Origin: Halogeometricum sp. S3BR5-2
GTDB taxonomy: Archaea; Halobacteriota; Halobacteria; Halobacteriales; Haloferacaceae
DNA: 64,000 nucleotides
Assembly (NCBI RefSeq): GCF_031624635.1
Contig: NZ_JAMQOQ010000001.1
Span: forward strand, 806,001 to 870,000
Direction: 5' to 3'
Shown here piece after piece: positions 18,509 to 51,526 of this stretch (within the stretch, counting starts at the first letter, position 1; every line of letters starts with the position of its first letter). The notes beneath the pieces are model-generated. The model did no database searches, was not told where the DNA came from, and saw only the letters and a program-made list of their open reading frames with translations. The translations under genes and the position numbers were made by a program.

Positions 18509-18581
18509 GCCGGTGTAGCTCAGCTGGCAGAGCGATTCCTTCGTAAGGAATAGGCCGAGGGTTCAAATCCCTCCACCGGCT
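18509..18581 (+). tRNA. tRNA-Thr, anticodon CGT
   Basis: A 73-nt cloverleaf fits perfectly: 7-bp acceptor stem (GCCGGTG with CACCGGC), D arm GCTC/GAGC, anticodon stem ATTCC/GGAAT around loop TTCGTAA, and T arm GAGGG-TTCAAAT-CCCTC. The anticodon CGT reads ACG, hence threonine. The discriminator is T, as expected for haloarchaeal tRNA-Thr. CCA is not encoded and no intron is present. The sequence just downstream carries degenerate copies of its 3' half. Confidence 0.97.
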
Positions 18582-49795: not shown

Positions 49796-50719
49796 TTAGA
49801 GGAGTCCGGTCTTCTGGAGCTTCATCAGGTCCTCGGTGTCGAGGGTCTCGCCCTCCTTGAACTTCTGGTAAATCTCCTCGGCCTCTTCCTTGGCGGCTTC
49901 GCGCTTCTCGGCGCGCTCGGCGTCGCGCTCCTGCTCTTCTTCCTTGTCGAGTTCGCGGAGACGCTTCTGGACGCGGACGAAGTCCTCGTGGTGACGGTCG
50001 GCGGACTCCTGGGCCTCGACGAACAGCTCGTGCATCGCGTCGGCCTTGTCTCGGATGTCGTCGGCCTCTCGGTAGGCCTCGATCATCTGGTTGTGGTGCT
50101 CCTGGGCCTTGTCGGCCAGCTCGGTCACCTTCTGGTGGTGCTGGGACGCCTCCGAGCGGACCTCCTCTGCCTCCTCGATGAGCTCTTCGAGTTCGCCGCT
50201 GTCATCGACTTTGTCCTTCTTCTGACGGAGCTCCTCGCGTTTGTTCTCGATCTTCTCGATGAGCTCTCGCTCGTCTTCCGTCGAGAGAACCTCCGTCTGC
50301 TGGCGGAACTCGAGCTGCTCGATCTCCTCTTTGAGCTCCTCGATGTCCTTGCCGTCGTCGAGCTCGAGGTCCTCTTTCATCTGCTCGACCTCGTCGAACA
50401 GCTCGTTGGCCTCGGCGTTGAGCTCGTTACGCTTGTTCTTGTGCTCTTGGACCTGCTCGTTGAGCTCGTCGCGCTGCTCGCGGTGCTCTTGGGCCTCGTC
50501 GACCTTCTCGCGAGTCTTCGCGTTCAGGTCGTCGCGCTTGGAGGCGCGCTCGGAGGCCATCTGGTTCAGGTCGTTTCGTCGGTCTCGGAGCTGACCGGCG
50601 AGCTTGATGAGCTGCCCTTTCGAGTCGTCTTCGAGCTGCTCGTCGCTTAGGTCGACGTTTGCCGATTCGTCGAGCTCTTGTACATCGTACTCCGTGAGAA
50701 CGTCTTGCTGTGTCACCAT
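49796..50719 (-). CDS. Long coiled-coil protein (COG1340-like)
   Basis: The 307-residue protein is almost wholly coiled coil (about 40-285) with heptads rich in Glu, Lys, Arg and Leu, such as EQRDELNEQVQEHKNKRNEL and KIENKREELRQKKDKVDD. There are no membrane segments or enzymatic motifs. Related archaeal proteins have often been called phosphoserine phosphatases without good reason. It may act as a scaffold or in chromosome organisation, but this is inference. A short acidic N-terminus (SANVDLSDEQLEDDSKG) and a C-terminal EGETLDTEDLMKLQKTGLL flank the coil. Confidence 0.82.
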   Translation of the reverse strand: MVTQQDVLTEYDVQELDESANVDLSDEQLEDDSKGQLIKLAGQLRDRRNDLNQMASERASKRDDLNAKTREKVDEAQEHREQRDELNEQVQEHKNKRNELNAEANELFDEVEQMKEDLELDDGKDIEELKEEIEQLEFRQQTEVLSTEDERELIEKIENKREELRQKKDKVDDSGELEELIEEAEEVRSEASQHHQKVTELADKAQEHHNQMIEAYREADDIRDKADAMHELFVEAQESADRHHEDFVRVQKRLRELDKEEEQERDAERAEKREAAKEEAEEIYQKFKEGETLDTEDLMKLQKTGLL

Positions 50720-51094
50720 TCGTAATCAAACCTCGATACCATTACCACTCCGTGCGTGGCGGCTGCTCGTGAGGGTGCGACCGGCCGTGGATAAGAATTC
50801 CCGATCATTCTGCGTGCGGTGCCGCCGGAACGCCGGAGGCGTTCTGGTAATAGCACATTGCGCGTGGTTGGTTATAAAGCCTTCGGTGGTCACGGCCTGT
50901 GAAAACGGCTACCACGGGCCGTGTAGCGGCGCAATATGCGTCCTGCGCATCCGTCTCGTCCCTTATAAATTGACTCGTGGTAACGTGGGGCATGAACCGG
51001 AGGGTTCGGCGCGGTCGTCTGACGCTCGTCTGCCAGTTTCGCCCGCCTCGGACCGAACCGTCGGGGACTTACCGTCGGACCGGCACCGAGGAGT
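50720..51094. other. 375-bp gene-free locus with strong hairpins and TATA-like boxes
   Basis: No convincing gene lies here. Three inverted repeats are present: a 10-bp stem with a 3-base loop (50825-50847), CACGGCC with GGCCGTG (50891-50897 and 50917-50923), and ATGCG-TCCTG-CGCAT (50936-50950). TATA-like GGTTATAAAG (about 50870-50879) and CCTTATAAATTG (about 50971-50982) and GGATAAGAATTCC (about 50789-50801) are scattered through it. Part of it must be the promoter of the coiled-coil gene; the hairpin region could encode an RNA. Confidence 0.45.
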
Positions 51095-51526
51095 ATGCAC
51101 GAAGAAGTCGTCCGCGCGCGCGGGCACGAAAACGTCTCAGCCGAGCACGCGAGCACGTTCGAGGTCACCTCGGACGACTGGCTCACGCCGGCCGGCGACT
51201 GCATCCTCGCCGTCGAGGCGGACCGGGTCCCGGCGGACTTCTCGACGGCGTTCGTCGACGCCTGTCGGGACGCCGAAGCGGCCATCACGGTCACCGTCGA
51301 GGTGGAGACGGCCGACGGGGAGACGCTCGGTGAGCGAGTCGAGGGACGCGGGCACCCGGACCTGACGTTCGAGGGCGACCGGAGCCACGTCGGCCGGACG
51401 AGCGACTACGTGGACGACCGCACGGTCCTCGTCGGCGCCGACGCCGCGGCCGCGGACTTCGACCGCGACTTCGTGGCGGCCCTCGCCGACGGCGGCGACG
51501 TGACGGTCACGTTCCGCGTGGAGTAG
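51095..51526 (+). CDS. DUF371 family protein
   Basis: The 143-residue protein starts MHEEVVRARGHENVSAEHAS and shows the DUF371 pattern RARGHENV, FEVTSDDWLTPAGDCILAVE and GRGHPDLTFEGDRSHVGRTS. It is a small beta-rich archaeal family without known function. The two GH-containing loops carry conserved His and Glu/Asp that could bind a metal. Length is normal for the family. Confidence 0.85.
   Translation: MHEEVVRARGHENVSAEHASTFEVTSDDWLTPAGDCILAVEADRVPADFSTAFVDACRDAEAAITVTVEVETADGETLGERVEGRGHPDLTFEGDRSHVGRTSDYVDDRTVLVGADAAAADFDRDFVAALADGGDVTVTFRVE

Follow-up and report, generated by a model that had tools for sequence, protein, structure and literature searches.

Translational riboswitches combine a conserved core with two alternative pairings beside the start region, and Shine-Dalgarno-sequestering leaders keep a Shine-Dalgarno-like strand paired just before the start codon. 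A survey from 2017 is said to have brought forward 224 candidate RNAs. The closest systems described in archaea are the structured leaders of ribosomal-protein genes, namely the Halobacteria S15 leader and the eL15 leader (Eckert and Weinberg 2020, PMC7247131), and structured cis-regulatory leaders are said not to be typical of the haloarchaeal lineage.

The locus analysed here carries a predicted leader ahead of a gene for a coiled-coil protein with the domain DUF7121. Like the S15 and eL15 leaders, as described in PMC7247131, it is a lineage-restricted structured leader of one orthologous gene, found by covariation, and in all of these the regulator is presumably the gene's own product. Unlike them, it precedes DUF7121 instead of a ribosomal-protein gene, and it has no match in Rfam. 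The candidate of a ribosomal-protein leader was rejected, as DUF7121 follows in the window and in the loci examined. With translational riboswitches the DUF7121 leader appears to share a conserved core and alternative pairings near the start region, whereas it occurs as one match per genome and, in the loci examined, before the same gene of unassigned function, and its ligand is hypothetical. Similar to Shine-Dalgarno-sequestering leaders, one of its helices (P2) has a 3' strand that resembles GGAG in the window's genus and is followed closely by an AUG; in contrast to them, the complementarity is kept and not the GGAG sequence.

In the window, the whole 64-kb stretch of DNA analysed, the locus is a gene-free interval bounded by the DUF7121 gene on the minus strand and the DUF371 gene (51095-51526) on the plus strand. 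The first-pass annotation had seen no credible ORF between these genes, which was borne out, and had proposed three hairpins between TATA-like boxes as a small RNA, a long leader or a protein-binding site. Leader nucleotides are numbered such that nucleotide (nt) k lies at window position 50851-k, with the predicted transcription start at nt 3 (50848). The genes and promoter elements concerned are the following.

49796-50719, minus strand: DUF7121 (PF23435) coiled-coil gene (Pfam E = 2.3e-169), which the leader is predicted to serve
50720-50848, minus strand: predicted 5' leader of the DUF7121 mRNA (5'-UTR), about 129 nt, delimited by blastn, covariance model and TATA spacing
50872-50878, minus strand: TATA box of the DUF7121 promoter; in 89/94 leaders its first T and the A of ACCAG further downstream are exactly 30 nt apart
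50881-50887, minus strand: BRE-like element ACCGAAG, conserved at -39 to -33
50896-50920, no strand assigned: operator-like conserved motif GTGGTA..GTTTTCAC, conserved at about -72 to -48 in 94 upstream regions
50963-50969, no strand assigned: second TATA-like box, with T at -120 in 64/94 upstream regions

A blastn search with 50720-51100 matched 39 of 60 genomes (own genome counted); outside the genus the matches mostly stop near 50850, and the several that reach into the promoter go no further than about 50925. The best match of the covariance model R2 in the window covers 50729-50850 on the minus strand (120.8 bits, E = 1.1e-24), the other one, on the plus strand, being at chance level (E = 0.24). 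Plasmid records gave no match. At the gathering threshold of Rfam release 15 the leader is unmatched and the locus gave no credible match; relaxing E to 10 around the locus gave three matches (E 1.5-3.5) far below gathering scores, and seven diverse relatives gave none at E up to 0.1. A tRNA gene at 18509-18581 is the sole Rfam gathering-threshold match within the 64-kb window. Searches of open-access literature, without supplements, brought up no description of the leader and nothing on DUF7121. The protein family carries the label COG1340, and among the open-access papers found under it none is about the leader, judging by titles and the opening of abstracts. The element is likewise not reported in the consulted parts of PMC4983044, PMC7247131, PMC2864571, PMC1906763, PMC3225822, PMC6490895 and PMC3986360.

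Alignment of the minus strand (29 loci, as well as 94 leaders with their upstream DNA) revealed the BRE and TATA elements, then a 23-nt stretch, and then a conserved block starting UACCAGAACG. The 23-nt stretch between TATA box and leader is variable apart from its -11/-10 and last bases, and A is found at -10 in 94/94 distinct leaders. PMC4983044 gives TTWT, CGAAA as BRE and WW at -10 as haloarchaeal promoter motifs, and the motifs of the DUF7121 promoter match these. Together with this agreement, the fixed distance from TATA to ACCAG places the predicted transcription start at about 50848, where the DUF7121 transcript would begin.

Of the two TTATAA-type boxes reported earlier, both exist at 50872-50878 and 50963-50969; the one placed at 50871 is real and is in fact the TATA box of the DUF7121 gene itself, while the one placed at 50973 was about 8-10 bases off. 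The second box could be a second DUF7121 promoter or a box for the divergent side. The 7-bp stem (50891-50897 with 50917-50923) and the 5-bp stem (50936-50950, ATGCG/CGCAT, read off the sequence) proposed in the same annotation are present, and the GTGGT/ACCAC pairing that it set against the former falls inside the 50896-50920 motif, which the 7-bp stem flanks. Both stems lie upstream of the TATA box and hence outside the predicted RNA, so that the proposed three-hairpin unit does not hold, nor does its lower boundary, since the leader continues about 80 bases beyond it to the gene start. As for conservation in related haloarchaea, the first stem is kept, the 7-bp stem is not preserved in that form in the other four loci of the genus that were aligned (L002-L005), and the 5-bp stem recurs in some members of the genus only (L001-L003). 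The motif at 50896-50920, also in the form GTGTG..GTTTTCAC, is kept across haloarchaeal families, and a second palindrome-like block occurs near -100 in many loci of other genera in the 94-region profile. The palindrome-like motifs at 50896-50920 and 50936-50950 are candidate operators, and the upstream motifs of this kind look like transcription-factor sites. The palindrome GTGTGAA..TTCACAC gave no exact match with a 4-nt gap (one base too long) in 40 genomes and none with a 3-nt gap in 99 genomes, which says little about a genome-wide regulon because the motif is degenerate.

Two covariance models were built, R1 from 23 and R2 from 50 sequences. R1 matched 251 of 392 genomes of the order, and R2 at least 372 of 392 (among good-quality genomes, 337 of 345), with one match each. 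The R2 search scored the best 9 candidates per genome under strict filters, so that extra or weak copies may be missed. The value of 372 is a lower bound, since two of the 20 unmatched genomes (G046 and G073) gave matches in a smaller search of the phylum. Genomes without an R2 match include small-genome families, and all 12 sampled genomes taken as Haloferax gave one. When 196 genomes were drawn from the phylum, 32/32 leader matches belonged to the window's own order. The DUF7121 protein was found in 389 of 392 genomes of the order, including 345/345 good-quality ones, and also in two control genomes, Haloferax volcanii and the methanogen Methanosarcina acetivorans; with leader matches confined to the window's own order, its presence in a methanogen indicates that DUF7121 does not require the leader. 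A phmmer search (E up to 0.01) gave no solved-structure relative of DUF7121.

DUF7121 adjoins the leader in 120/120 leader-selected loci (109 genomes, 11 loci repeating a genome). Conversely, in 80/80 protein-selected loci, many of them from the same genera, the leader sits in the sense direction where the gene begins, one of these loci being cut by a contig end. From the 120 loci 95 leaders were retained, those left out being mainly duplicates and near-duplicates, plus L025 with a long insert; low-scoring extra matches of L005 (22.3 bits) and L061 (16.6 bits) were dropped as chance. Removal of one duplicate left 94 distinct leaders, and removal at ≥97% identity left 82. Long interior inserts occur in Haloquadratum and some other leaders. 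The inserted leaders L139 and L142 (789-991 in both), L172 (817-1002) and L187 (801-987) measure 186-203 nt and are matched by R2 end to end. L025 (1500-1691) has both P2 arms and 192 nt in all, and its genome, G009, was matched over 132 nt only.

The predicted structural elements of the leader are given below.

50845-50847, minus strand: P1 5' strand, nt 4-6, CCA, predicted to pair with the UGG that overlaps an upstream AUG
50739-50741, minus strand: P1 3' strand, nt 110-112, UGG (CC:GG in 82/82 leaders, A-U in 77/82)
50833-50838, minus strand: P2 5' strand, nt 13-18, CUCCGG, covarying with 50748-50753
50748-50753, minus strand: P2 3' strand, nt 98-103, covarying with 50833-50838
50821-50826, minus strand: P3 5' strand, nt 25-30, GGCGGC, predicted to pair with 50758-50763
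50758-50763, minus strand: P3 3' strand, nt 88-93, predicted to pair with 50821-50826
50785-50809, minus strand: conserved central core AAUGAUCGGGAAUUCUUAUCCACGG, a candidate receptor site with many near-invariant columns
50825-50847, minus strand: local 5' hairpin, nt 4-26, loop UCC, predicted to compete with P1 and P2

P2 occurs in seven fully complementary versions, CUCCGG/CCGGAG, CACCGG/CCGGUG, CUUCGG/CCGAAG, CUCCAG/CUGGAG, CACUGG/CCAGUG, CAUCGG/CCGAUG and CACCGA/UCGGUG. In P3, 73.9% of cells are paired across 50 leaders, with GC/AU/GU exchanges. The CC:GG pairs of P1 are invariant and therefore yield no covariation evidence, and its extension (nt 2-3 with 113-114) is partly variable. In a sequence-only MAFFT alignment of 50 of the 95 leaders (A4), P1, P2 with two adjacent pairs, and P3 are paired in 88.6% of cells, against 22-48% when partners are slid by 1-3 columns. 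Compared with shuffles, which ignore relatedness, the same alignment gave 50 double-change cells vs 23.2 +/- 5.6 (0/500 as high), a covariation score of 0.207 vs 0.140 (0/500), 8 pairs with a double change vs 5.0 (7/500) and 22 further pair types vs 18.8 (30/500). In a tree-based test of our own implementation, in which all 7021 column pairs of 82 leaders were compared with alignments simulated on the tree, the P2 pair 14-102 ranked first (E = 0.033), and no second pair among the 7021 fell below E = 0.05. A first covariation test on 23 close relatives, with an additional hairpin included, gave nothing above shuffles, and RNAalifold on 26 sequences returned a weak consensus (-9.55 kcal/mol, covariation term -0.28). 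Overall, P2 covaries strongly and P3 moderately, and P1 shows no covariation.

Folded one at a time, most leaders form a single long rod; L013 and L086 are among the exceptions, in which the local hairpin is favoured. The hairpin around the core (P5) pairs well in part of the sequences only, and for this reason no fixed fold was assigned around the core. With up to 3 mismatches allowed, the core motif occurs once in the own genome, in the leader itself, and possible imitation of an rRNA site was assessed through this search only. The core (AUGAUCGGG...) was not taken as coding, since by eye neither codons nor length are kept. The claim of much more structure than in other intergenic regions is true in a weak form only, 50800-50990 having z = -2.61 (plus strand) and z = -0.83 (minus strand). 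The sense-strand 115-nt leader has a folding z of -2.2, and of 150 windows drawn at random from the 64-kb stretch, intergenic or not, 6 are equally low or lower. The DNA upstream of the TATA box has no folding excess (z = +0.09 minus, -0.93 plus). It is conservation and covariation that are decisive, folding energy giving a modest signal alone.

The first stem of the earlier proposal (50825-50847) is present with its 3-nt loop and forms 9 of the 10 pairs claimed. The 5' strand of P2 doubles as part of the 5' arm and loop of this local hairpin. The bases at nt 10, 11 and 13 have downstream partners inside nt 3-32 in 82 of the 94 leaders; among the remaining 12, all but L075 have a variant hairpin, and L075 has a weak one only. 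The mean energy of the local hairpin is -11.0 kcal/mol, compared with -7.0 kcal/mol in segments subjected to simple shuffling. In 88/89 scored leaders the P2-containing rod is predicted to be more stable than a crude split fold, the average margin being 8.4 kcal/mol, and 81/89 have it as their minimum-energy fold, five of the 94 being unscored because their central P2 pairs are not all standard. That both folds persist suggests a two-state RNA; the local hairpin may also persist just because the CCGG of P2 is self-complementary.

The 3' part of the leader carries a further conserved feature, which brings in an alternative reading of the locus.

50713-50742, minus strand: candidate uORF MVSRFDYEW, AUG at nt 109, overlapping the DUF7121 start, proposed from AUG conservation

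Possibly, though we lean against it, expression is governed by a leader peptide, such that uORF coupling or re-initiation would set DUF7121 output and the fold would mainly hide or expose the AUG. Indeed, nt 109-111 read AUG in 88 of 94 leaders (GUG in 3, ACG in 2, AAG in 1), 15-25 nt ahead of the next in-frame ATG of DUF7121, which was taken as the main start, and in 72 of 94 a stop in the uORF frame is reached by main AUG +16 through differing stop codons and spacings. However, such stops also occur in the other frames (55 in the uORF frame vs 27 and 42 among 72 distinct segments), in several lineages the short uORF gives way to an in-frame extension or to a long overlapping ORF in another frame, and AUGG could be kept as the pairing partner of CCA instead. 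In L081, L092 and L096, among others, the upstream AUG is in frame with DUF7121, and the true DUF7121 start may therefore vary. The strand ahead of the upstream AUG keeps its complementarity while GGAG changes to GGUG, GAAG, GAUG or AGUG, and a Shine-Dalgarno sequestrator was rejected on these grounds, the sequence of the paired strand varying while complementarity stays. According to PMC3986360, Haloferax does not use the Shine-Dalgarno mechanism at 5'-UTRs, with which the non-conserved GGAG agrees.

A rod that protects the mRNA or fixes its translation level as a constitutive 5'-end stabiliser, without switch or ligand, would fit a structure beginning at the predicted 5' end and the predicted greater stability of the rod over the split fold, but it gives no evident reason for the strong conservation of the central core, and we regard it as unlikely. 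The compact and predicted stable leader might also give rise to a small RNA of its own that acts in trans, the mRNA being its precursor or a read-through product, and Haloferax does have small intergenic RNAs directly upstream of genes, as stated in PMC6490895; this we hold to be improbable, given that in all 80 protein-selected loci the leader is sense-oriented and ends at or shortly before the gene, and that a bacterial-type scan, itself weak evidence, gave no terminator-like site in 50600-51200. It is very hard to credit that the conserved sequence acts as DNA only, through a promoter and transcription-factor sites and with no functional RNA. Conserved palindrome-like motifs upstream of the TATA box would explain the second stem of the early proposal, perhaps the third, but past the predicted start two arms, separated in the window by about 80 nt, change in step so as to stay complementary, which a DNA site does not need.

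We therefore return to a 5'-terminal structured mRNA leader acting in cis on the DUF7121 gene, a reading that we consider fairly probable. Of the three options first offered for the locus, the long leader is the one well supported, for 50848 down to 50720, by the fixed TATA distance, the same downstream gene and the compensatory base changes. The leader position, the gene linkage and the P2 helix are supported by sequence. On our best reading of these data, this so far undescribed leader would control DUF7121 expression via alternative pairing near the start, most likely at the level of translation. In the cell it would fold as a long rod, in which P1 would tie the extreme 5' end (CCA) to the UGG overlapping the upstream AUG, itself 15-25 nt ahead of the true start codon, P2 would stack inside P1, and P3 with the conserved core would form the rod tip. 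The local hairpin, made from the segment transcribed first, could form first, and the two folds would be mutually exclusive because the same 5' bases are usable for either. A factor bound to the conserved core might then decide between them and so set ribosome access to the start region. As the leader was found before the DUF7121 gene only, the DUF7121 protein would be the most economical factor, although autogenous control by this protein is a guess and the weakest step of the scheme. In its full form, which we offer tentatively, the proposal is a near-universal haloarchaeal RNA switch, in which the first ~20 nt would enter either a local hairpin or a ~115-nt rod hiding the upstream AUG, the choice being set by the coiled-coil protein or another core-bound ligand.

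The occurrence of the leader in at least 372 of 392 haloarchaeal genomes would be a clear exception to the rarity of structured leaders ascribed to this lineage, and provides a first handle on DUF7121, a protein without assigned function in 345/345 good-quality genomes searched. Its occurrence in Haloferax offers a tractable system for leader-controlled translation without Shine-Dalgarno pairing. If the RNA switch is true, it would be among the few natural cis-regulatory RNA switches in archaea, and would operate in organisms of which one reportedly does without Shine-Dalgarno initiation at 5'-UTRs.
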